From contig JAIETZ010000001.1 of NCBI GenBank assembly GCA_019744775.1, positions 186,001 through 250,000 of the forward strand: a stretch of DNA of 64,000 nt. The letters run 5' to 3'. The notes under the pieces were generated by a model, which was given only the letters and a program-made list of their open reading frames with translations, did no database searches and had not been told where the DNA came from. This DNA comes from Candidatus Obscuribacterales bacterium (GTDB taxonomy: Bacteria > Cyanobacteriota > Vampirovibrionia > Obscuribacterales > Obscuribacteraceae). The translations under genes were made by a program, and so were the position numbers. Position 1 is the first letter of the stretch; each line of letters begins with the position of its first letter. Positions 23,115-33,736 of this stretch are shown piece by piece.

Positions 23115-23121
23115 ATTGTCG

Positions 23122-23949
23122 ATGAAATTCAATAAGCTTCTACCTGCAGCACTTGTTTGGCTTGTTTTTCTAGCCAATCCGGCTCCGGCAGAAGTCATTT
23201 TGTCCAAGTTTTCCGGTAAGGTCGTCCATGACTTTACCGTCTTAAATGCCGGCTCCTTACTAAGAGTTGAAGTTTTAACCCCTTTAGACACCAGCTCGGC
23301 AAAACTTGGTGACAGATTAGAATGCCGAATTATCGACTATATCTCTGTAATTGGACACCAGGTAGCCTGCCCAAAAGACATTGTCACCGGCAAGATAGTG
23401 AGTATTTATCGTCCGAAAAAAACTATCAAAGCTTATATCCCAGGCAGGACGTTTTTAAATGCCGATGCCAGAGTCGGTCTTAATTTCGACACAATAACAA
23501 CAAAAGAAGGCATTCACACAACAATTTCAGCTAAGCCCGCGCCTAAAAGCAGGGTCACAAAATACTATCCTTCCAAGATTGATATTGTGGTTGATAGAAA
23601 CGGTGAATACGAAACTAAATACGACACAAAAAAACTACTTGCCGTCGATGCTGCAATTACCGCCGCCTCATTTGCCGCCGGCCCTGCTGGGATTCTTGTG
23701 GCGCCGGCACTGAGCGGAGCAGCCGGTGCAGTTTCTTCAACATTTGCCCAGGGACGTCCGTTAGAAAAATCAGAAAAGACAAATAAACCGCGCGACATTG
23801 CCGTCAGTGTCGGCAAAGGTCTGCCGGGCGGCAGCATCGTCTCCGGCGTAACCACACGTGGAGCACATTTATTTTTAGAAAAAGGGGATCAATTGCTTTT
23901 GATTCTCAATCAGGACGCCTATTTCTATAGAGGGGCAAATAACAGGTGA
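23122..23949 (+). CDS. Exported protein of unknown function, tandem paralogue A
   Basis: The protein has 275 residues. The ATG at 23122 is preferred to an in-frame TTG 6 bases earlier because it gives the better signal peptide (KLLPAALVWLVFLANPAPA-EV). The body is beta-rich: LRVEVLTPLDTSSAKLGDRL, then DIVTGKIV and IKAYIPGRTFLNADARVGL. A Gly/Ala hydrophobic segment lies near residues 180-215, followed by GLPGGSIVSGV and the end motif KGDQLLLILNQDAYF. The gene product at 23946-24809 has all these landmarks in the same order. I do not recognise a family. The pair overlaps by 4 bases. Confidence 0.75.
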   Translation: MKFNKLLPAALVWLVFLANPAPAEVILSKFSGKVVHDFTVLNAGSLLRVEVLTPLDTSSAKLGDRLECRIIDYISVIGHQVACPKDIVTGKIVSIYRPKKTIKAYIPGRTFLNADARVGLNFDTITTKEGIHTTISAKPAPKSRVTKYYPSKIDIVVDRNGEYETKYDTKKLLAVDAAITAASFAAGPAGILVAPALSGAAGAVSSTFAQGRPLEKSEKTNKPRDIAVSVGKGLPGGSIVSGVTTRGAHLFLEKGDQLLLILNQDAYFYRGANNR

Positions 23950-24809
23950 AACAGTCAATTCCGTTACTAGCATTATTATCTCTAATTCTACAATTGCCCT
24001 CTTACGGACAATACACGGTAATTGACGCGAACCCCGGCGGTCCGACAGCTGAGACCGTGGCTCCTGTTAAGCCAATACTTTACCCACAACTTACAGGCAG
24101 CGTAGAAACCGATGAAGTAAGTCTTTCTAAAGGCTCACGATTTCGAGTGAGTTTAATGACAGATGTGAGCAGCCAGACAGCGACATTAGGCGACACAGTG
24201 GAAGCAAGCTTAGTTGACGATTTGACGATAAACGGTATTACGGTCGCCAAGAAAGGTGATGTCGTCACAGGACAAGTAACCGATGTCGCCCGAGCAGAGA
24301 GGACAATTAAGTCCTATATCCCGCGTCATCATTTTCTTGATCCCGAAGGTCGCCTGGCAATAACATTTCTCAGCCTGCAAAACAAATCAGGGGCAACTTC
24401 AATATCAGCGACATTAGCCCCACAAACTGAAATTGAATCTGCAGGTTCAACCTTAAGGTTGATAGTAAATAAAGGCGGCGATGCTGAAGTTAAAAGCATT
24501 ACTACAAGATATCTGGTCGCTGACGCCGTGTTAGCAGGCGGTCTCGTGGCAGCCGGTCCAATTGGATTAGCGGTAGCACCTGCAGTTACAGGAATTGCCG
24601 GTGCGATATCTCCGTCGTACGCGCTGGGCCATCAGGTAGAAGCCGGTGAATCACACAGCCGGGTCAAAGATTTTCTCCTGGGCGCCAGCCGCGGTGTGCC
24701 CGGTGGTGTCATTGTCTCCGGAATTGCTACACATGGCGAAGACATCAAATTAACTAAAGGCGATGAGCTTGTTGTCGAACTTAGCCAGGATGCCTTTTTC
24801 AACCGCTAA
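23946..24809 (+). CDS. Exported protein of unknown function, tandem paralogue B
   Basis: The protein has 287 residues. It starts at a GTG that overlaps the stop of paralogue A (GTGA), so translation is coupled. A signal peptide ends near SYG-QY. Shared landmarks with A are FRVSLMTDVSSQTATLGDTV, GDVVTGQV, IKSYIPRHHFLDPEGRLAI, a Gly/Ala hydrophobic stretch, GVPGGVIVSGI and KGDELVVELSQDAFF. The sequences have diverged well beyond recent duplication, so both copies have probably been kept for separate or joint roles, for example as a hetero-oligomer (inference). Confidence 0.75.
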   Translation: MKQSIPLLALLSLILQLPSYGQYTVIDANPGGPTAETVAPVKPILYPQLTGSVETDEVSLSKGSRFRVSLMTDVSSQTATLGDTVEASLVDDLTINGITVAKKGDVVTGQVTDVARAERTIKSYIPRHHFLDPEGRLAITFLSLQNKSGATSISATLAPQTEIESAGSTLRLIVNKGGDAEVKSITTRYLVADAVLAGGLVAAGPIGLAVAPAVTGIAGAISPSYALGHQVEAGESHSRVKDFLLGASRGVPGGVIVSGIATHGEDIKLTKGDELVVELSQDAFFNR

Positions 24810-24962
24810 TTGAGCCAAGCTTGCCGCGACAAAATTAGCATCGATTAACCGCAACCTCCATATTTTCTCCACAATCTCCATCGTTACTCCACTTGGGCTA
24901 CCTAGGATGGTTGATGAAAGTCACGAGTCCATGAGGGTGGACATTTGTGAGGTCATGATGCA

Positions 24963-26444
24963 ATGGTATCAACTCGGCTGGGGAAAATTTTGTTGGTCTG
25001 CAACGCCTACTTGCTTATGCACTGCCCCCAAGCAAGCGCAGACACTACAAACGGGTGTTCCCGCTCGTATGCACCTTCCGACGCTACGATCACCCGCAAA
25101 ACAACCATAGAGCCAACCCGTGTTCTAGGGCGAATCCCACGTCTATCGTTGGTACCCATTGCGCATGTCCGCGGCGAACTATTTCTCAAAGATGAGATTT
25201 TATTCGGCCAGCCAACAATGTCCTTGCTGAAAAGCGAGGGCATTGTCGCCGAAAAAGGCAGACATGAAAGTCATTTGGTTTTAGGCTCAGGCAGTCTCTT
25301 ACTGGCGCCAAAAAACACCATTGATATTTCCGTACCCAATGCAGAAATAAACGTGGCGGCAGGCGCCATAGTTTATATACGCACTAAAGGTACTACCACC
25401 GCGATTCTCAATCTACACGACGACAGAGTAAATGCAGTGAATGTACTTTCAGCCCATACTCGCTATTACCTTCCACCCGGGCGCGTTATGCTCGTCACAG
25501 AAGATCGTTATACGGATTTCGATAATGCAAATCCATGTCCTGGTCTCTGGTATAAAACTGTCTACACGCATGAAAGCACAGAAGGCATAACAAGGCTTGT
25601 ATCACAATTTTCACCACTATCAGCAGCCTGGATATTGCCGTCTGTCAGACATTTGATATTAAACAGGAGCAGTCACGGCAATAAGATAATGAAAACTTGC
25701 GCAGCGGTAACTGTAATGTCGCGCGATCACAAACAATTTAGATACAAGCTTGATGATCATGAGCGCAGTCCTGTTCTTTTAGTTTCGGGCAAATTGCAAT
25801 CACAAAATGATGAAGAGACTAATACTTTGGAAACCTGGAAAACCAATGTACAGGGTAATTCACGCGGTGACGAATTGATCTCATTGCTTGATGCAACTAA
25901 TGAAAAGCTATCACAAGACGCCAACGATGCCGACTCACTATATTTAAGAGGCTATTTATACGGTGTTGTCGGCTGCACAACCTGGGCTATCCAAGATTTG
26001 ACAAAAGCAATTGAGAAAAACGAAGACTTTGCCGACGCTTACAAAGAACGCGGCATTTGCTATATGGACAACAAGAATTTCGATGAAGCATTGAAAGACT
26101 TAAACCATGCACTCGAGCTGGATCCAACATCAGGAGATGCTTTGCTTGCCAGAGGACGCCTTTATATGCTCACCTCGCAACCAGACGCAGCGTTGACCGA
26201 TTTAACCAGGTGTACGGAAGAGTCAGTTAAATTCACACCGGCGCTGCCAGGAGAAATGCCGGGGAATTTTTACAATGCTCCAGAATACTATTTGAGCAAT
26301 TGCTATAAAGCTTTAGGTAACGAAGACAAAGCCAAAGAGCATTTGGAAAAAGCTCAGGTAAGCGACGTTCAAGCATCTGTTCCTGACACTGACTACTTGC
26401 ACCGTTTTGCCGACAAGCCCGCTGAAACACAACCCAGTCAATAG
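24963..26444 (+). CDS. Exported FecR-like / TPR protein
   Basis: The protein has 493 residues with a signal peptide ending near ASA-DT. GAGG lies 10 bases before the ATG; other ATGs lie close by. Residues about 108-255 form a FecR-like beta module (SLLLAPKNTIDISV; AILNLHDD; PPGRVMLVTED; EGITRLVSQFSPLSA). This module is also found at the C-terminus of the giant protein at 43701-52673. Residues about 300-470 are TPR units (AIQDLTKAIEK; ALKDLNHALELDPTSGDALLARGRLY). FecR-type domains act in periplasmic signalling or surface assembly; TPRs bind partners. The stop abuts the response-regulator stop on the other strand. Confidence 0.8.
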   Translation: MVSTRLGKILLVCNAYLLMHCPQASADTTNGCSRSYAPSDATITRKTTIEPTRVLGRIPRLSLVPIAHVRGELFLKDEILFGQPTMSLLKSEGIVAEKGRHESHLVLGSGSLLLAPKNTIDISVPNAEINVAAGAIVYIRTKGTTTAILNLHDDRVNAVNVLSAHTRYYLPPGRVMLVTEDRYTDFDNANPCPGLWYKTVYTHESTEGITRLVSQFSPLSAAWILPSVRHLILNRSSHGNKIMKTCAAVTVMSRDHKQFRYKLDDHERSPVLLVSGKLQSQNDEETNTLETWKTNVQGNSRGDELISLLDATNEKLSQDANDADSLYLRGYLYGVVGCTTWAIQDLTKAIEKNEDFADAYKERGICYMDNKNFDEALKDLNHALELDPTSGDALLARGRLYMLTSQPDAALTDLTRCTEESVKFTPALPGEMPGNFYNAPEYYLSNCYKALGNEDKAKEHLEKAQVSDVQASVPDTDYLHRFADKPAETQPSQ

Positions 26445-27131
26445 TTATAGCTCGTAGCGATAGCCCACTCCATACACTGCATGGATAAGTTCTTGTCCGG
26501 GCAAGACTTTAGCGATTTTCTTGCGCAAGTTTTTGATATGACTGTCAATAACTCGATCGTAGACATACTGCTCTTGCTGGTAACAAAGCTCCAACAGCTG
26601 CGAACGAGAATACACTCTTCCCGGACGGCTTATAAGAAGTTTCAGCAAGCGAAATTCAGTACCAGTTAAATCAAGCGGAACGCCATTGACGGAAATTCGT
26701 GATTTTTCATCATCGACATAAAACAGCTTGCCTGTTGTTTCCTTGGCTTGCTGGTTAGACCGGCGCATAACAGTTTTCACACGCGCCACGACTTCTCGTG
26801 GGCTAAATGGCTTGCAAATGTAATCATCGGCTCCTAAGCCCAATCCTAAGAGCCTATCGAGTTCATCTACGCGTGCACTGATAACAATTATCGGCACTTC
26901 TGAAAACTTGCGAATCTCACGACAAATTTCCAGCCCATCGACACCAGGCAACATGAGATCAAGCAAAATTAGATCCGGCGTCTCTTTTTTCACATCAGCC
27001 ACGACACCAGTGCCCTTATCAATGTGCACAGGTTCATAGCCGTCTTGGCGCAGATAATCCATGAGGATTTCGGCAATCCTGTGCTCGTCTTCAACAACCA
27101 ATACTTTTGGCTTATCCGGCATCTTTGTCAT
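26445..27131 (-). CDS. OmpR/PhoB-family response regulator
   Basis: The protein has 228 residues. The receiver domain has the acidic pocket (VVEDE), the phospho-acceptor Asp in LILLDLMLPG, the switch VISAR and the conserved Lys in ICKPF. The C-terminal winged helix has LTGTEFRLLKLL and ends with VYGVGYRYEL. The frame overlaps the histidine kinase gene by 20 bases; an ATG three codons later (27122) is an alternative start. It is the last gene of the operon that starts at 33607 and probably controls that operon or cell-envelope genes. Confidence 0.92.
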   Translation of the reverse strand: MTKMPDKPKVLVVEDEHRIAEILMDYLRQDGYEPVHIDKGTGVVADVKKETPDLILLDLMLPGVDGLEICREIRKFSEVPIIVISARVDELDRLLGLGLGADDYICKPFSPREVVARVKTVMRRSNQQAKETTGKLFYVDDEKSRISVNGVPLDLTGTEFRLLKLLISRPGRVYSRSQLLELCYQQEQYVYDRVIDSHIKNLRKKIAKVLPGQELIHAVYGVGYRYEL

Positions 27132-28620
27132 TTCCAGCTAAAGGCAATTTCAATTCAATCTTCAAACCACCCAGTACTGAAGGAGCTGCGGCAATTTGTC
27201 CATCATGCGCCTCGACAATACTTTTACAAATAGCAAGTCCCAATCCTGCTCCACCAAAGTCTCGACTGCGAGAAGATTCAACGCGGAAAAATCTTTCAAA
27301 AACTTGCGGCAAAGCTGCTCTTGGCACAGAGGGAGCCGAGTCTTCAATTTTTAAAATTACATCCTTGTCTGTAACATCGGTACTGAGTTTTACAACGCCG
27401 CCAGCATCCGTATATCGCAGGGAATTTTCCAGAAGGTTCATGAATACTTGTTTTATTCTATTGCGATCTGCATTGATTACAATTTCACCTTCGAATAGCT
27501 CGCTGGTATCAACGGACAAGTTCTTCTCCTTGAAGCGCTCTTCAAAAGTAAATAAAACATCTTGCAGGCAGACAATAATATCCATAGGCATCAAGGTATC
27601 TGTAAGCTTTCCTACATCAAAGCGGGCAAGCCAATAAAGGTCATCAACCAATTTACTTAAGGACATTATTTCCTTGTGCAAGACAGCTAATGTTTTTGGG
27701 TTGGCTTGTTGAACACCATCCTGGAAAGCCTCTACTTGCGCTCGCAAAATAGCTATCGGCGTGCGCAACTCATGAGATGTATCAGACACCCACTGCTTGC
27801 TCTTTTGATCTTGTTTCTCCAAAGTCTCAGCAAGGAAATTGAAGTCCTTGGCTAATTCGCCAATCTCATCTGACGAAGAAGTATCCAGGCGCGTGCTGAA
27901 ATCCAACGATGCCAATTTATGTGTACCTTTTGAAAGGGCCTTAATGCCAGCCAATAAATGGCTGGAAAGCATCATAGAGGCTATAGTAGCCGCACAAAAG
28001 CCGGCTAAAGCAATGAGCAACAAATTTTTGTTTTGCTCATCGACAAAATTTGATTCAATCTCGCTGTAGAGAGAAGTTCCAGGAGCCAGTGCCAAATATC
28101 CTACTTGTTTGCCGTCAACAGTAAGCGGCAAATTGGCTATCGCCAAATTTGCCGAACCTTCTCCCCAGAGTCGGTTCTTGTCCGCATTGAAAAGAGATAC
28201 TCTATGCAGCAATTCCATAATATGAGGGGGTATTCCCAAAGGGTGAAAGAGCAAGAAATGATGTCGAGTTGGTGCATGCGGAGTATATGAGGTAGAACGC
28301 TCAGCAAAGTCGTCGTCTGTTCGCGGTCCTAATTCCTCACGCCGCTTTTCATCCATGGCTTCTTTCGGAGCCATGGCTCTTTGCATTTCGCGCCAAACAA
28401 GATCCGGATCTGTTTCTAGAAATTCCCAATTGCCGTGTTCTTTGTAAAGTTTTTCGATATGACGAGCCACAGGCTCAACTTTTCTCAACTCCACGCGCGC
28501 CAGGTACCTACCAAAGCCGGTGCCAATACTTGCTTTGGTCAAAGCAACAATCAGTCCAATAACACAAGCTGTTACCAGAATTATTGTAAAAAAGAGCTTT
28601 TTAGTGATTGTAAGCTTCAT
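27112..28620 (-). CDS. Sensor histidine kinase (BaeS-like)
   Basis: The protein has 502 residues from the ATG at 28620. The frame is open further upstream, but that part lies inside the preceding gene and encodes no membrane helix. Transmembrane helix 1 is at about 10-28 and helix 2 near 220-240. The periplasmic part between them contains a His-rich patch (TPHAPTRHHFLLFHPLGIPP), which could bind metal. HAMP, then the H-box SHELRTP, N-box NLLENSLRYT, and G-boxes follow. The ATG lies 4 bases after the stop of the urea-transporter/M23 gene, so the sensor is translated with it. The linked substrate or product of that operon is the natural ligand candidate (inference). Confidence 0.92.
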   Translation of the reverse strand: MKLTITKKLFFTIILVTACVIGLIVALTKASIGTGFGRYLARVELRKVEPVARHIEKLYKEHGNWEFLETDPDLVWREMQRAMAPKEAMDEKRREELGPRTDDDFAERSTSYTPHAPTRHHFLLFHPLGIPPHIMELLHRVSLFNADKNRLWGEGSANLAIANLPLTVDGKQVGYLALAPGTSLYSEIESNFVDEQNKNLLLIALAGFCAATIASMMLSSHLLAGIKALSKGTHKLASLDFSTRLDTSSSDEIGELAKDFNFLAETLEKQDQKSKQWVSDTSHELRTPIAILRAQVEAFQDGVQQANPKTLAVLHKEIMSLSKLVDDLYWLARFDVGKLTDTLMPMDIIVCLQDVLFTFEERFKEKNLSVDTSELFEGEIVINADRNRIKQVFMNLLENSLRYTDAGGVVKLSTDVTDKDVILKIEDSAPSVPRAALPQVFERFFRVESSRSRDFGGAGLGLAICKSIVEAHDGQIAAAPSVLGGLKIELKLPLAGNDKDAG

Positions 28621-28624
28621 CGGC

Positions 28625-30817
28625 TCAAGTATTAGGGAAGCAAGCGGAGGACCTCTCCGGTATGCCATTATCCTCCCGAATACTCTGTGCAGCAAGCATG
28701 GCCGACTGCAGAGTTTCTCCATGTCTCGATACCTCCAAATAAAGCACACCCAGTGATTCACAAAGGTGAACTTCCGTTTTGCATGACCATTTAATTAATC
28801 CCAATTGCAACTTATGTTCAGCTTTCTGAATCCAACGCTTCAACTGACCGTCCCAAGTCCGTTCATAACAACTCACCGCCAATTTATGCCAGGGCGTAAA
28901 TACTGCGCATAATGCTCTTAAATGAAAGGGCAACGGCAGAAACTTCATAGGCGTTAAATCCTGCCAGTTAGTCACTGCTTCCACGAAAGGCGTTAAGCCA
29001 ACTGCCAGTACAAACGCATCCAACAATGAATCCGGCTTACCTGCACGATTGTAAAATGCCACCAAGTCATCATTGAGCGTGAATGCTACACTGGCACCTT
29101 TATCGCTAAACAAATAGAATTGCCCATAAGGATCCAATGTGGTTTCCAGATAGCGCTTTGTCTCACCGGCATTATTTTTACCAACTCGACAATCAAATTC
29201 CAGGCGGCTTCCAACTGAAAGCTTGAAAGCTTTTTTCAATGCATGATTGCGTATTGGAGCAATGACCGTTTGTTTTTCTTTGGGAATAACATTCAGTGCG
29301 TAATAAGCTGAGCCTCCAGCAGGAACAATGACGTCTGTTAGGTGAAATGGCAGCGTGCGGCTACCCAGGCGTGGACTTTCCTGAACATGCATGTGCACAT
29401 GCGGTTGTGGTGACCTTCCGGAATTACCACACAAGGCAAGCACCTGTCCAGGGACAAGATAATCGCCTGCTTTTACACGCAAGCTGTCCTTTTGTAGGTG
29501 GGCAAGAACAACATATTTCCAAAATCCAATTTCAATAACGATGTAATTACCAAAACTGTTCACCGTATCGACCTGTCCAGGTAGATTGTCGGCAAAACCG
29601 TCAAAACATTCAAAGACACGGCCATAAGCAGGCGACAAGACAGGTTTTGCATAACAACGGAAATCTGTGACGCCTACCCCATCATCTTTGTAGCTTACGC
29701 CATTCTCAAATTGAAAAAAATCCAGCGCATATCTAAGACTACCTTTGTGCGTATGGGCACCATCAAACCCCTGATAAACTTGCCAGGCACCGGCAAAAGG
29801 CGCCTTCAATGCGACACTGCGCGGATCGACACCTCGTACATACGCAATTTTCATTTGCTCGATACTTTTTTCAGCAAGACATGGGCTCGTCAACCAAAAT
29901 CTTGCCCATGGTCCACCTTGCTGAGGACTAAATGCCAATATGACAGCATAGGTAGTGACAACAAAGGGCAACGCCAGCGCCGGCAAATGCAAAATCCACA
30001 TAACCTGATTGAAACTTATCGTTAAAAAACAAGCGACTATGCCACTGGACAGCGCCACGGCAATGCTGCGCTTACCAGGCACCGTGTACAAACCACCAAT
30101 TATGCATGCAGTCAAAACCGCATTCATTTGCGCAACCAGATATAAAAGTGAATCCGTCCCCGCCAAATTAAGTATGCGAAAGATGAGCAGGCAAACAATT
30201 ATTTGGGCCAGTCCAATCAGAGCCAAATAACGTGACGAAATGGCAAATGCAAGAAAAGTGAGGATACCACCCAGCGCTGTGCCACTATAGTAAACCGCTC
30301 CAAAGGGCGCCAAGAATTTGAAAGCAGATAAGGTGTTGTTTTCAACACCGGCAAATACAGTTTGATGACTAGCTGGAGAAAGCAAGTTATAGCCTAAAGG
30401 CAAAAGCAAATACGCAGCCACAACATAGGGCATGCCTAGAAGAGGCAACTTAAATACTCTGGTTAGCGAGTCTTGTAAGACTGCACCGGCAACAATAACC
30501 AGTGTCGCTCCTAAAGCTACTACAAAAACAGACTGCCAGGAAAATGCATACAGCGAACCTAATAACATGCCCAGCAAAATACCGTTGACAGTGTCCAGTC
30601 TTTCGTAATCGCGAGGCAAAGAAAACAGTCTTCTAAGGGCAATTACAAACAGCCCGCCAAGCATGCCCATCAGTCCCGTGGCTGGAATTAGAAAACTGAC
30701 GGCAAATAAGAGCAATTTAGAAAGCGTCTTATCCAAAGAGAAAAATGATCCATAACCGTCTAATAGACTGGCAAACGTTTCCGCTATTTGTCTTGCTATT
30801 AACTTTGCCGTATTCAT
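28625..30817 (-). CDS. Urea-transporter-like membrane domain fused to M23 metallopeptidase
   Basis: The protein has 730 residues. Residues about 25-305 match the urea transporter (UT) fold twice over: DTVNGILLGMLLGSLY and LLGMPYVVAAYLLLP in half one, and AQMNAVLTACIIGGLY and ALALPFVVTTYAVI in half two. Residues about 345-500 form an M23/LytM-type Zn-peptidase domain (HTHKGSLRYALDF with His and Asp ligands, VVLAHLQKDSL, and HVHMHV carrying the HxH). About 230 C-terminal residues have no match I recognise. The gene overlaps the decarboxylase gene by 4 bases (ATGA). I infer a channel for a small amide or amine coupled to an envelope peptidase. I believe UT-M23 fusions occur in other bacteria but cannot check. 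Confidence 0.82.
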   Translation of the reverse strand: MNTAKLIARQIAETFASLLDGYGSFFSLDKTLSKLLLFAVSFLIPATGLMGMLGGLFVIALRRLFSLPRDYERLDTVNGILLGMLLGSLYAFSWQSVFVVALGATLVIVAGAVLQDSLTRVFKLPLLGMPYVVAAYLLLPLGYNLLSPASHQTVFAGVENNTLSAFKFLAPFGAVYYSGTALGGILTFLAFAISSRYLALIGLAQIIVCLLIFRILNLAGTDSLLYLVAQMNAVLTACIIGGLYTVPGKRSIAVALSSGIVACFLTISFNQVMWILHLPALALPFVVTTYAVILAFSPQQGGPWARFWLTSPCLAEKSIEQMKIAYVRGVDPRSVALKAPFAGAWQVYQGFDGAHTHKGSLRYALDFFQFENGVSYKDDGVGVTDFRCYAKPVLSPAYGRVFECFDGFADNLPGQVDTVNSFGNYIVIEIGFWKYVVLAHLQKDSLRVKAGDYLVPGQVLALCGNSGRSPQPHVHMHVQESPRLGSRTLPFHLTDVIVPAGGSAYYALNVIPKEKQTVIAPIRNHALKKAFKLSVGSRLEFDCRVGKNNAGETKRYLETTLDPYGQFYLFSDKGASVAFTLNDDLVAFYNRAGKPDSLLDAFVLAVGLTPFVEAVTNWQDLTPMKFLPLPFHLRALCAVFTPWHKLAVSCYERTWDGQLKRWIQKAEHKLQLGLIKWSCKTEVHLCESLGVLYLEVSRHGETLQSAMLAAQSIREDNGIPERSSACFPNT

Positions 30818-32241
30818 GAAGCAGCCTCAATATGCTTTCCCAAGCGGCTATGTTTGTTGAGATCCAAAAAAGGCACGCTTAAATGCTTGGGCAAATTATC
30901 TTGTGCACACATGACTGACAAATCCTCTGCTTTGCGAATAACAGACACCTGTCCATCTTCATGCACCAGAACTACATTTGGGCGGTATTCAATAAACTGC
31001 ATCCATTGGGTGTTGTTGTATGCGCCTACAGATTCGACGACCAGCAGGTCACCTGCCGTTAGGGGCGGCAGGTGAATGCTGTGACGCACTACATCAATAT
31101 TCATACAAAGCGGTCCGTACAAAATAGTGTCTTCAATGGGGCCTTGGCATTCCTTAGTCAGTTTCACCTGATGGTTGTACCAATAGGCAGTGAAAAGCAA
31201 ATTAGTACCGCCATCAAGAATTACTGCTTTGCGCCCGTCGGACAGCCTCTTTGTGCCGACAACAGTCGTCAGCAAGACTTGCGTATCATCAACAATTGCC
31301 CGTCCAGATTCAAATATCAAGCGAGGCAATGGGCGCCCGGCTGCCAGTCTATATTTCGTACCCTCACGCAGAGCGCTGGTCACCGCATTGACATAGTCAT
31401 TTACGGATGGCACTGCTTGTTCCGGTGGTAAATAAATTCCCTTAAGAGCGTTTTGTGAAGGGAAACCACCACCAATATCTATGTATTCAATTTGAGTGTC
31501 GTCATTTTCCACTTCACGCATAAATTCGCACATAATGCGTACTTGTTCGGCATAGGCACGTGGCTCCAAAATAAATGTGCCGATATGGCTATGCAAACCA
31601 ACGAGTTTAAGATGAGGACTTAAGGCTATCCATTTCGCAGCAAGATAAGCTTGTCCACTTTCCAAATTGAAACCAAATTTCCCCCATGGCTCTGTAAAGC
31701 CGGTATCAAAGTTAAGTCTTAAGGTAACCGGCGCAACCAAGTTTAGCTCGGTGGCGACGGCTTCTATGTTATGCAATTCATCAAGGTGATCCACATGAAG
31801 ATGTGCTCCTTCGCGAATTGCCTTTTGTAAGATGCGCTTAGACTTATTGGGACCATTGAAAATAATTCTGTCTCCAGGCACACCTAGAAGTCTTGCCTTT
31901 TCATATTCAAACTCCGATACAACCTCAGCCCACGATCCTTCCTGGTGGAGAATATTACAGATAGCGCTTGTGTAGTTAGTCTTGTAAGACCAACCATGAG
32001 TAACAAGACTGTAGCGTCTTTCAAAAGCACGCTTGAGACGCCTTACGTTTTCGCGAATCTTCTTTTCAGAAGTGACATAAAGTGGCGAACCATATTTTTC
32101 AACCAGATCATTCACGTTTACGCCAAATACTTGGTCGGTAATATTGTCTTGGTGCGTACGTTTACCGAATTTGTTTATTTCACCTATCCTATGCGGTTGA
32201 ATAAATGGTGGTTCCCAGACACTTGAGTAAAGATCTTTCAT
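30814..32241 (-). CDS. PLP-dependent decarboxylase, diaminopimelate/ornithine decarboxylase family
   Basis: The protein has 475 residues. AGGAG lies 6 bases before the ATG. Alanine-racemase-fold features are the PLP lysine in THGWSYKTNYTS, HSHIGTF, the phosphate-binding IDIGGGFP, FESGR, and the dimer-partner motif YGPLCMNIDV with the catalytic Cys, then SVGAYNNTQ. It is about 50 residues longer than LysA, with an N-terminal extension of about 30 residues. The sequence has drifted from housekeeping LysA, and the neighbours (ATP-grasp, PqqD-like) suggest a dedicated pathway that turns an amino acid into an amine. The exact substrate cannot be read from the sequence. Confidence 0.85.
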   Translation of the reverse strand: MKDLYSSVWEPPFIQPHRIGEINKFGKRTHQDNITDQVFGVNVNDLVEKYGSPLYVTSEKKIRENVRRLKRAFERRYSLVTHGWSYKTNYTSAICNILHQEGSWAEVVSEFEYEKARLLGVPGDRIIFNGPNKSKRILQKAIREGAHLHVDHLDELHNIEAVATELNLVAPVTLRLNFDTGFTEPWGKFGFNLESGQAYLAAKWIALSPHLKLVGLHSHIGTFILEPRAYAEQVRIMCEFMREVENDDTQIEYIDIGGGFPSQNALKGIYLPPEQAVPSVNDYVNAVTSALREGTKYRLAAGRPLPRLIFESGRAIVDDTQVLLTTVVGTKRLSDGRKAVILDGGTNLLFTAYWYNHQVKLTKECQGPIEDTILYGPLCMNIDVVRHSIHLPPLTAGDLLVVESVGAYNNTQWMQFIEYRPNVVLVHEDGQVSVIRKAEDLSVMCAQDNLPKHLSVPFLDLNKHSRLGKHIEAAS

Positions 32242-32255
32242 GAATGTCTCCTGTT

Positions 32256-33356
32256 TTAGCCTGCTTCTGAGGTTACAAATTGTTGGGCCAGTCTTCCTTG
32301 AACAAGCATTGATTCGAAATCTTCCAGATCAACTATTAGTTCTTGTGCATGCCGAATAAAAAACGTACCTGCTTTAGCAGGCGGCAAATCGAGATTTACT
32401 TCACCGGCCAAAAGCTTTAAAACTACAGAAGGCAAATTTCTGCCTGCAGCATGGCTCAAGTAGATCCACGAAGGAAAACGTGGATTAATTTCAATCAAAT
32501 GAATTTTGCCATCTTCCGTTTTCATAACTTCTACTTCAAATGGGCCTGACCACATTAGGGCTTTGACGATCTTTTCAGCCATTTCAGCAATTGCGTCATC
32601 AACTACGGTTACACCAGCCCAGGCTTTGCCTTTATCGGTAAGAGCGCGTTTGCGCATCATTACAGCTCCGATTAGGTTACCTTTGCCATCGCCGACTCCT
32701 GCCAAATCGAACTCGTCACCGTCCACCATTTTTTGAACGAGCACAGGATAGCCCCAAGCTGCGACCAATCTATTGAAGATGGCTTTCGCTTCGTGTCCAT
32801 TGTGAGCAATACCGGCATCATAAAAAATGCCTTTCACGACAAGCGGATATTTCCATCCATCTGCTTCGCACTTATCAAAAAACCCAATATTGGAAATAAT
32901 CTTACATTCGGGATGATTGATATCAATGGACCGGCAAAATGCGCTCAGGTGATCTTTAGCGCGCAAATTGTACTGGTCTCTGCTCGGGATAAGCATGGCG
33001 ATTCCTAATTTGGCTAAAGCCGGCTTGATACGGCTGAAATTAGGTATCTCGGCATCCAGACAAGGAATAATGGCATCCAATCCGACATCTTGATGAATTT
33101 GCAAAATCCTATCAAGTAGCGCTCTTTCACCTGCTGACGGATAGGGGATGAGATAGCTGCCGGAACACAACTCTTTTGAGTACAGTCCGGCATCAAATAC
33201 ATCATAGCCAAGACCAATAACTTCACCTGTGAAATTTGCACATTCACGAATACAACGTGCCACTGCCATGCCCGGTCCGGGATTCTCTGCGCGGGCATTA
33301 ATACCTGTCACGGCAACATTGGCATTGCGCCACTGTCTCTTGCTAAAAATTGTCAT
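32256..33356 (-). CDS. ATP-grasp carboxylate-amine ligase (CarB-like)
   Basis: The protein has 366 residues. An N-terminal pre-ATP-grasp Rossmann-type domain (NVAVTGINARAENPG) precedes an ATP-grasp core with YPLVVKG, VLVQKMVDGDEFD and the metal and phosphate site FEVEVM...HLIEINPRFPSW. It resembles carbamoyl-phosphate-synthase-like stand-alone ligases that join a carboxylate to an amine via an acyl phosphate. The start overlaps the PqqD-like stop by 4 bases (ATGA). The decarboxylase gene follows after 14 bases. A peptide-like or amide conjugate is the likely product (inference). Confidence 0.88.
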   Translation of the reverse strand: MTIFSKRQWRNANVAVTGINARAENPGPGMAVARCIRECANFTGEVIGLGYDVFDAGLYSKELCSGSYLIPYPSAGERALLDRILQIHQDVGLDAIIPCLDAEIPNFSRIKPALAKLGIAMLIPSRDQYNLRAKDHLSAFCRSIDINHPECKIISNIGFFDKCEADGWKYPLVVKGIFYDAGIAHNGHEAKAIFNRLVAAWGYPVLVQKMVDGDEFDLAGVGDGKGNLIGAVMMRKRALTDKGKAWAGVTVVDDAIAEMAEKIVKALMWSGPFEVEVMKTEDGKIHLIEINPRFPSWIYLSHAAGRNLPSVVLKLLAGEVNLDLPPAKAGTFFIRHAQELIVDLEDFESMLVQGRLAQQFVTSEAG

Positions 33357-33607
33357 AGATATCTCTCCAGTTGCAACAAGAACGCCTCAACAGAAGTTGC
33401 CGCAACTTCATAGGTGACGCCATACTGCTGCGACAGGCAATTCGCCGTATCTTCAACACTCGTTCCTTTCTTCAAAAGATTGAGCGACATAAGTCCTGTA
33501 CCGTTCAAGGAAAAGCTCTGTCCTGTTTGAGGATCAAAGACAAAACCACTATCACTTACGGCAAGTTTTCTAAGTCGCTCGCTGGGACAAATATTATTGG
33601 CTGTCAT
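33353..33607 (-). CDS. PqqD-like peptide-chaperone (RRE) protein
   Basis: The protein has 84 residues from the ATG at 33607, preceded by AAGGAG (33619-33624, 11-base spacing). An ATG 7 codons upstream (33628) has no SD. The layout is that of PqqD: a short strand pair (SGFVFDPQTGQSFSLNGTG) followed by three helices (MSLNLLKKG; VEDTANCLSQQYGV; EVAATSVEAFLLQLERYL). PqqD-fold proteins bind leader peptides of ribosomally made peptides (RiPP recognition element) or act with HPr kinase-like proteins. It is the first gene of the six-gene operon and is translationally coupled to the ATP-grasp ligase. Confidence 0.8.
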   Translation of the reverse strand: MTANNICPSERLRKLAVSDSGFVFDPQTGQSFSLNGTGLMSLNLLKKGTSVEDTANCLSQQYGVTYEVAATSVEAFLLQLERYL

Positions 33608-33664
33608 GTCTGTACTAACTCCTTTCATGCCAACTGCATCTTACAAAGGGGGCATGGAGAGAGG

Positions 33665-33736
33665 ATGGAATCTATGGAGAAATTGTGGAGACCGGCTAAA
33701 TCTTGGCTAAATAAGCAGGCTCGTAAACTTTCCTAA
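33665..33736 (+). CDS. Possible 23-residue basic peptide upstream of the PqqD operon
   Basis: A short frame starts with ATG 5 bases after GGAG and encodes a cationic, Trp-containing peptide (MESMEKLWRPAKSWLNKQAR then KLS). It sits in the divergent gap between the PqqD-like gene and the kinase gene. It may be chance. It is listed because a peptide-binding PqqD-like protein lies 60 bases away. Confidence 0.2.
   Translation: MESMEKLWRPAKSWLNKQARKLS

Follow-up and report, generated by a model that had tools for sequence, protein, structure and literature searches.

What would a bacterium make, move or sense with an operon in which a urea transporter channel is fused to a zinc peptidase? Such an operon occupies positions 26445-33607 of the window, that is, the whole stretch of 64,000 nucleotides analysed here (contig JAIETZ010000001.1, positions 186,001 to 250,000) from a Candidatus Obscuribacterales bacterium (assembly GCA_019744775.1), whose genome comprises 4.1 Mb in 13 contigs. 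Six genes in a single minus-strand run encode a PqqD-like protein, an ATP-grasp ligase, a pyridoxal-phosphate (PLP) decarboxylase, a fusion of a urea transporter (UT) domain with an M23 peptidase (UT-M23), a sensor histidine kinase and a response regulator. The first four recur as a core in many phyla. As far as sequences and models can indicate, the six genes may encode a self-contained pathway, controlled by the two-component system, through which a single small amide-linked amine is synthesised, processed and transported; we rate this reading as evenly balanced between right and wrong.

Conservation of the Gene Order

To collect distant loci, a UT-M23 alignment alone was run against one genome of each species, so that neighbouring genes lay outside the query. 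This gave 110 confirmed UT-M23 relatives, of which 80 were kept; open reading frames (ORFs) were called and scored with iterated profiles. The order PqqD, ATP-grasp, decarboxylase, UT-M23 is intact in 47 of the 80 loci, and the median intergenic distances in core loci are -4, -4 and +4 bases. The other 33, which mostly run into the end of a contig, include 11 with a partial core and a contig end, eight without upstream room, seven with a different decarboxylase/ATP-grasp pair beside UT-M23, and one of another kind. According to their record titles, the core loci belong to Cyanobacteriota, Pseudomonadota, Acidobacteriota (Geothrix), Desulfobulbaceae, Aquificota and Campylobacterota, and also to Ignavibacteria/Melioribacter, WOR-3, Thermotogota, Eremiobacterota, Verrucomicrobia and Lentisphaerae. 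The four-gene core thus reaches ten or more phyla; most of the records are metagenome-assembled genomes, and some bins are perhaps mislabelled.

The trees of the four proteins agree. Pairwise correlations of tree distances among ATP-grasp, decarboxylase and UT-M23 are r 0.93-0.95, those of each with PqqD are 0.76-0.83, and none of 2000 permutations (0/2000) reached the observed values. Since species history also contributes, these correlations show joint inheritance and not physical interaction. The core is an ancient unit that was handed down as one.

Closer relatives were sought by searching 240 genomes of the class with UT-M23. Full-length matches were restricted to the window's family, Obscuribacteraceae, from which 16 stretches were taken. 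The core is found in all of these but L122, whose DNA begins inside the ATP-grasp gene. Room for further genes is available in 13 family loci; in 11 of them a kinase gene and then a regulator gene follow the core on the same strand, and the six-gene order is kept. The gene order is not due to chance, since four genes recur in 47 of the 80 loci, each fetched independently, and all six recur within the family. A preliminary description of the window, made from its sequence, had treated the genes as one functional unit whose order should be sought in other genomes. That order is indeed kept, the core across many phyla and all six genes within Obscuribacteraceae, so that the six are not seldom found together; synteny, tree agreement and a common operator (see below) speak for a single unit. 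The core is conserved more than that description knew.

The Decarboxylase and the Ligase

The preliminary description also took the decarboxylase for an amine-maker like diaminopimelate decarboxylase (DapDC). An amine-forming decarboxylase remains plausible; DapDC-like action does not, with the residues for diaminopimelate (DAP) gone. The protein scores 236.8 bits against the LysA model, below the cut-off of 297.9, and a separate LysA (442 bits) is encoded in the same genome. LysA/DapDC identity was rejected on these grounds and because both DAP-recognising determinants are replaced. Where the genome's own LysA has FCESGD, the operon enzyme has Cys-Met-Asn-Ile-Asp (CMNID), with C379-M380-N381 invariant in 59 of 59 sequences; its specificity helix reads TAYWYN (Thr-x-x-Trp-Tyr) and that of LysA reads NPRP. 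A Met after the catalytic Cys, here M380 (59/59), is a trait of FslC/FigC. FigC has been distinguished from diaminopimelate and ornithine decarboxylases (DAPDC/ODC) by this Met in place of an acidic residue beside the catalytic Cys and by a specificity helix without Asp or Arg; FigC, SbnH, AcsE, MccE and BtrK form one clade that is unlikely to act in polyamine metabolism (PMC7857480). The closest solved structure is 7kh2, an N-citrylornithine decarboxylase (182 bits), and the score against the FslC model (N-citrylornithine decarboxylase FslC/FigC) is 209 bits, below its cut-off of 500. From its residues and best structural match, the operon enzyme probably belongs with the FigC-type clade. A further LysA-like decarboxylase gene lies at G000:C8:99870-101225, with a weak match in two stretches.

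The relatives FigC, SbnH, MccE and BtrK use conjugated substrates. The replacement of the DAP-recognising determinants, one of them as in N-citrylornithine decarboxylase, suggests that the operon decarboxylase works on a conjugate in the order 'ligate, then decarboxylate'. The same order is seen with FigA/FigC (FslA/FslC) of rhizoferrin synthesis, where the ligase joins first and an alanine-racemase-fold decarboxylase with Met beside its catalytic Cys uses the conjugate, although this product is also reached by another route, in which decarboxylation comes first (PMC7857480, 7kh2). In contrast to the present operon, the FigA/FigC system has a nonribosomal-peptide-synthetase-independent siderophore (NIS) synthetase as ligase, not an ATP-grasp enzyme, and is without a PqqD-like protein, UT channel or M23 domain. 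BtrJ/BtrK of butirosin and MccE of microcin C likewise include decarboxylases of this clade that act on conjugated amino acids, and BtrJ is an ATP-grasp ligase. The substrates of BtrK and MccE are held on a carrier protein or a peptide-nucleotide, whereas the PqqD-like protein here is without a carrier-type conserved end.

For the ATP-grasp enzyme the Pfam call is ATPgrasp_Ter, above cut-off; the amide-forming ligase suggested earlier is plausible. Residues E276, E289, N291 and others are invariant in 52 sequences, and the sole solved relative is 2pn1 (39.7 bits).

The PqqD-like homologues align over a conserved GF[VI]FDPxTGxSF core. A role for this protein as a carrier, with ligation to its C-terminus as in LysW or BtrI, was considered and rejected, the C-terminus not being conserved. 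Several proteobacteria (L030:6523-7329, L021:1857-2648, L040:6705-7487) have proteins of ~260 residues with a TetR-type N-terminus and a C-terminal PqqD domain, possibly a fused regulator, and proteins of similar length occur in L019, L025 and L042. A second PqqD-domain gene is found elsewhere in the window's genome (G000:C6:154921-155118).

The UT-M23 Fusion

The AlphaFold2 model of UT-M23 (predicted local distance difference test, pLDDT, 93.7; predicted template-modelling score, pTM, 0.89) has a UT channel fold at residues 1-300, an M23 domain at 335-480 and a C-terminal beta domain at 537-725. Foldseek matched the UT part to dvUT (3k3g, target TM 0.82) and the M23 part to the M23 domains of LytM and DipM. 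The passage of urea-like amides had been proposed for the channel. The fold and the Pfam score agree with a UT protein; the residues that bind urea are replaced. For example, the position of dvUT Q24 is E in 26 of 70 sequences, S in 15, A in 10, G in 8 and Q in one, and the position of E187 is A in 31, S in 16 and T in 10, with no E or Q among the residues listed. Because these positions are changed, urea is unlikely to be the substrate. Thus UT-M23 has the UT fold of dvUT and UT-B and their pore-loop Pro/Asn motifs, but differs from them in that Q24/E187 and the signature Thr are largely replaced and M23 and C-terminal beta domains are fused to the channel.

The M23 site is invariant in 70 of 70 sequences, both in its zinc ligands (H357, D366, H475) and in its catalytic residues (H440, H473); the H-x8-D spacing is unusual. 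Loops expected inside are net positive (N-terminus +1.8, L4 +0.8, L6 +0.9, L8 +0.9, C-tail +1.8), and those expected outside are near neutral or acidic, as in known UTs. A further moderately hydrophobic stretch occurs in 6 of 70 sequences only. This positive-inside pattern, with no further transmembrane segment, predicts that the M23 domain is cytoplasmic, a location that argues against a wall substrate. The earlier proposal that the domain cuts at the envelope is weakened by the predicted topology, although the zinc site is invariant.

The peptidase-containing ABC transporters from clusters for ribosomally synthesised and post-translationally modified peptides (RiPPs) likewise combine a membrane transporter and a cytoplasmic peptidase domain in one protein, with genes for modification enzymes alongside. 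Those proteins have a C39 domain and an ABC exporter, whereas UT-M23 has a zinc M23 domain and a passive UT-fold channel, and no leader or precursor was found here.

In Magnetococcales and Magnetospirillum (L024:12118-15256 and L026:4028-7097), UT-M23 is followed by an asparagine-synthase-like protein. In the same two loci it is also followed by a protein in which the second half of a UT domain is linked to tetratricopeptide (TPR) repeats.

Two-Component System and Candidate Operator

The histidine kinase scores 400.7 bits against NCBIfam BaeS_SmeS (cut-off 500) and the regulator 296.6 bits against BaeR (cut-off 380). E. coli BaeSR is thus the best family match of both proteins, and the candidate operator described below resembles the BaeR box. 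Unlike BaeSR, the window proteins remain below the cut-offs, and their predicted regulon lacks an efflux pump, being made up of one biosynthetic operon plus a TPR gene. Of 48 core loci in the wider set, 18 have a kinase or regulator gene no more than 2.5 kb away. Outside the family these genes frequently belong to different types: CpxA-like in L025, and CopS/CopR-like in cyanobacterium L095 and beta-proteobacterium L033. The two-component system is therefore a family-level attachment to the core. A kinase type that varies with lineage (BaeS-, CpxA- or CopS-like) is no less compatible with envelope or metal stress than with sensing of the product.

In the window and most family loci, CTCCAY-N5-CTCCAY-N5-CCAT is found upstream of the PqqD gene, and TANNATG follows at a fixed distance in nearly all aligned sites. 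A scan of 542 kb on both strands for CTCCAY pairs spaced by 7 to 30 bp gave 18 pairs at 11 bp and 9 at 20 bp, the latter largely from those sites again; each remaining spacing gave 0-3. Each 11-bp site lies ~40-150 bp before either the first gene of the operon or a TPR gene. A homologue of this TPR gene adjoins the operon in most family loci and is its first gene in several. For example, it comes first in L114, L115, L123 and L124, where the site precedes it, and the arrangement of the window's second operator before the TPR gene also occurs in L109, L113 and L120. The motif was defined on these same family loci, and the genome-wide count is the independent test: there are exactly two copies, both perfect, and a whole-genome scan at one mismatch gave no third (reversed control 0). 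From the exact number of two, the predicted regulon consists of the operon and the TPR gene, and nothing else. For E. coli BaeR, the reported binding sequence is TTTTTCTCCATDATTGGC, in which a CTNCA element is conserved (PMC3799227); the CTCCAY repeat is a BaeR-box-like candidate operator, to which the response regulator is predicted to bind. This candidate operator, present in two copies in the window's genome, is a new finding, and the predicted two-site regulon would be a ready reporter for tracing the signal.

In L118 (7651-9491), UT-M23 is shortened to ~490 residues and runs into the TPR gene; kinase and regulator are absent and the operator is kept. A recent deletion or an assembly fault could each have produced this arrangement.

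Other Operon Types and Neighbouring Genes

A second type of UT-M23 operon occurs in Psychromonas (L053, 9878-17998), in the beta-proteobacterial loci L032, L033, L036 and L037, and in L035 and L093. It carries a non-homologous Orn/Lys/Arg decarboxylase of fold I with an extra N-terminal region; in most cases this is accompanied by a C45 acyltransferase-family protein and an ATP-grasp protein that is PRK06524-like. Because both decarboxylase and ATP-grasp protein are unrelated to those of the core, a ligase plus a decarboxylase would seem to be the functional constant beside UT-M23. For rhizoferrin, one genus ligates first and then decarboxylates, and another starts from putrescine (PMC7857480). 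By analogy, a single product class could be reached by both operon types, each with its own order of steps.

A barrel gene and/or a TPR gene, which form one linked cluster, lie within 2.5 kb of 33 of 48 core loci. The barrel protein, encoded behind UT-M23 in many phyla, is modelled as a confident 14-strand barrel that resembles FadL, OmpG and other porins, and in Iningainema an OprB porin takes its position. Genes for CusA/CzcA-type heavy-metal pumps are near the operon in L020 (6985-12962), L030 (541-6307) and L040 (14582-20557), with scores above cut-off in L020 and L030. The CopS-like kinases, the CusA-type pumps and the siderophore-type decarboxylase residues hint at a role in metal or envelope stress, as a lead only.

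Proposed Pathway and Alternatives

If the operon directs synthesis of an amide-linked amine, the PqqD-like protein would present the substrate to the ATP-grasp enzyme, or organise that enzyme, which would form an amide bond to an amino acid. The decarboxylase would then strip a carboxylate from the conjugate, as FigC does with N-citrylornithine, to leave an amine. The cytoplasmic zinc peptidase of UT-M23 would cleave or trim the product and its UT-fold channel would pass it across the inner membrane, a coupling of cleavage to transport modelled on peptidase-containing exporters. In other phyla the 14-strand outer-membrane barrel and the TPR protein behind UT-M23 would finish the route; in the window bacterium the TPR protein is predicted to be co-regulated. 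The kinase would answer envelope or metal stress.

Several observations weigh against this pathway. UT-M23 stands without any core partner, despite room, in 6 of the 80 loci, and the family loci L118 and divergent L119 are without kinase and regulator. Searches of the loci found no precursor peptide or carrier for PqqD, an unlinked precursor being possible. Whether E or S/A/G stands at the dvUT Q24 position varies by lineage, so that pore function could be lost, and none of the UT-M23 relatives found has a known substrate. The window locus lacks the barrel and has the TPR protein only, and only a few loci have CusA pumps or CopS-like kinases close to the operon.

A wider form of the amide-amine pathway, which we consider doubtful, would make UT-M23 the fixed hub: its cytoplasmic zinc peptidase would couple processing of the ATP-grasp/decarboxylase product to membrane passage in ten or more phyla, with two unrelated enzyme pairs feeding in the same amine-amide type. 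A literature search for UT with M23, ATP-grasp or PqqD found no characterised equivalent; a general survey of ATP-grasp amidoligase operons was not covered. If the pathway is real, the role of UT-family channels goes beyond urea: joined to a peptidase, they are the hub of a biosynthetic and transport route, so far uncharacterised, that is shared by Cyanobacteriota, Pseudomonadota, Aquificota, Campylobacterota, Acidobacteriota and others. The tight ligase/decarboxylase pairing would make its product predictable enough for a search by mass spectrometry. Such decarboxylases likely carry a LysA label and the fusion a urea transporter label, and both labels are probably wrong.

PqqD folds are the leader-binding domains of RiPP clusters (NCBIfam lasso/PqqD relatives), and an unlikely alternative is a RiPP-like operon in which PqqD binds a leader, the ATP-grasp enzyme and the MccE/BtrK-like decarboxylase modify the core peptide, and the leader is cut off by M23 at the UT channel mouth. 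Graspetides are products of ATP-grasp enzymes, and at some graspetide loci peptidases are encoded yet no precursor is detectable (PMC8939145); MccE decarboxylates a peptide-linked group, and the predicted cytoplasmic peptidase is fused to a channel. However, among ORFs of 15-110 residues within 900 bp upstream of PqqD, no small ORF is conserved across lineages (those present are common only to very close relatives), the fetched neighbourhoods hold no short conserved protein family, and UT pores are narrow. An ORF of ~108 residues lies ~76-419 bp upstream of PqqD on the operon strand in L109, L113 and L120 (72-80% identical), and was not found in the window.

Uptake or salvage, in which barrel and UT import an amide or cell-wall fragment, M23 cleaves it inside, and decarboxylase and ATP-grasp enzyme recycle the amino acids, is improbable. 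Sequence does not fix the direction of the channel, M23 enzymes normally cut peptidoglycan peptides, the barrel resembles FadL/OmpG-type uptake channels, and BaeS/CpxA-type kinases monitor the envelope. Yet the decarboxylase has lost both DAP-recognising determinants, an ATP-consuming ligase suits synthesis better than catabolism, and no conserved amidase, urease or amino-acid catabolic gene is found in the neighbourhoods.

Least probable is envelope remodelling, with UT as a mere anchor for a periplasmic M23 that edits peptidoglycan and with ligase and decarboxylase making a wall-attached amine: diamine-modified peptidoglycan is known from Veillonella-type bacteria, all five M23 zinc and catalytic residues are invariant, TPR and outer-membrane proteins are nearby and the two-component system is of an envelope-stress type, but the positive-inside charges place the C-terminal part in the cytoplasm, only the 6 of 70 sequences have the further hydrophobic stretch, and the UT pore architecture is retained.

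Features of the Window

Coordinates of the operon, its operators and the TPR gene are collected in Table 1. The six-gene run and its junctions agree with the preliminary description on re-checking, and its domain calls for the six genes are all above Pfam cut-offs. The PqqD and ATP-grasp genes overlap by 4 bases, a gap of 14 bases separates ATP-grasp from decarboxylase, the decarboxylase and UT-M23 genes overlap by 4, and the kinase and regulator genes by 20. The gap of 4 bases between UT-M23 and the kinase holds for a kinase start at ATG 28620, which is most likely the start, rather than the first possible start at 28761, where the ORF opens. The sequence AAAGGAG precedes the PqqD start.

Table 1. 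Positions in the window of the operon genes, the TPR gene and the predicted regulatory sites
Feature	Position	Strand	Remarks
Operator 1, CTCCAC-N5-CTCCAT-N5-CCAT	33665..33690	-	11-bp period, BaeR-box-like, upstream of operon
-10-like TAAGAT behind operator 1	33638..33643	-	spacing conserved; putative promoter
PqqD-like protein	33353..33607	-	84 aa, ATG 33607; PF05402 42.7 bits, cut-off 23.4
ATP-grasp ligase	32256..33356	-	366 aa; PF15632 49 bits, over cut-off
PLP decarboxylase, alanine-racemase fold, not LysA	30814..32241	-	475 aa; Orn_Arg_deC_N/C over Pfam cut-offs
UT-M23 fusion	28625..30817	-	730 aa; PF03253 84.8 bits (cut-off 25), PF01551 40.5 bits, over cut-off
BaeS-like sensor histidine kinase	27112..28620	-	HAMP/HisKA/HATPase over Pfam cut-offs
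BaeR-like OmpR-family response regulator	26445..27131	-	Response_reg/Trans_reg_C over Pfam cut-offs
Secreted TPR protein	24963..26444	+	493 aa, convergent with operon, adjoins regulator gene end
Operator 2, CTCCAT-N5-CTCCAC-N5-CCAT	24856..24881	+	upstream of TPR gene
-10-like TAGGAT behind operator 2	24903..24908	+	spacing same as operator 1; putative promoter

Just upstream of operator 2, at 23116-23949 and 23946-24809 (+), are two adjacent genes for secreted proteins of 277 and 287 residues, apparently related to each other and without a Pfam or NCBIfam match. In the TPR protein, TPR families score over cut-off; a FecR domain was considered and dropped, as Pfam gives TPR only. True FecR proteins are encoded near L024 and L033.

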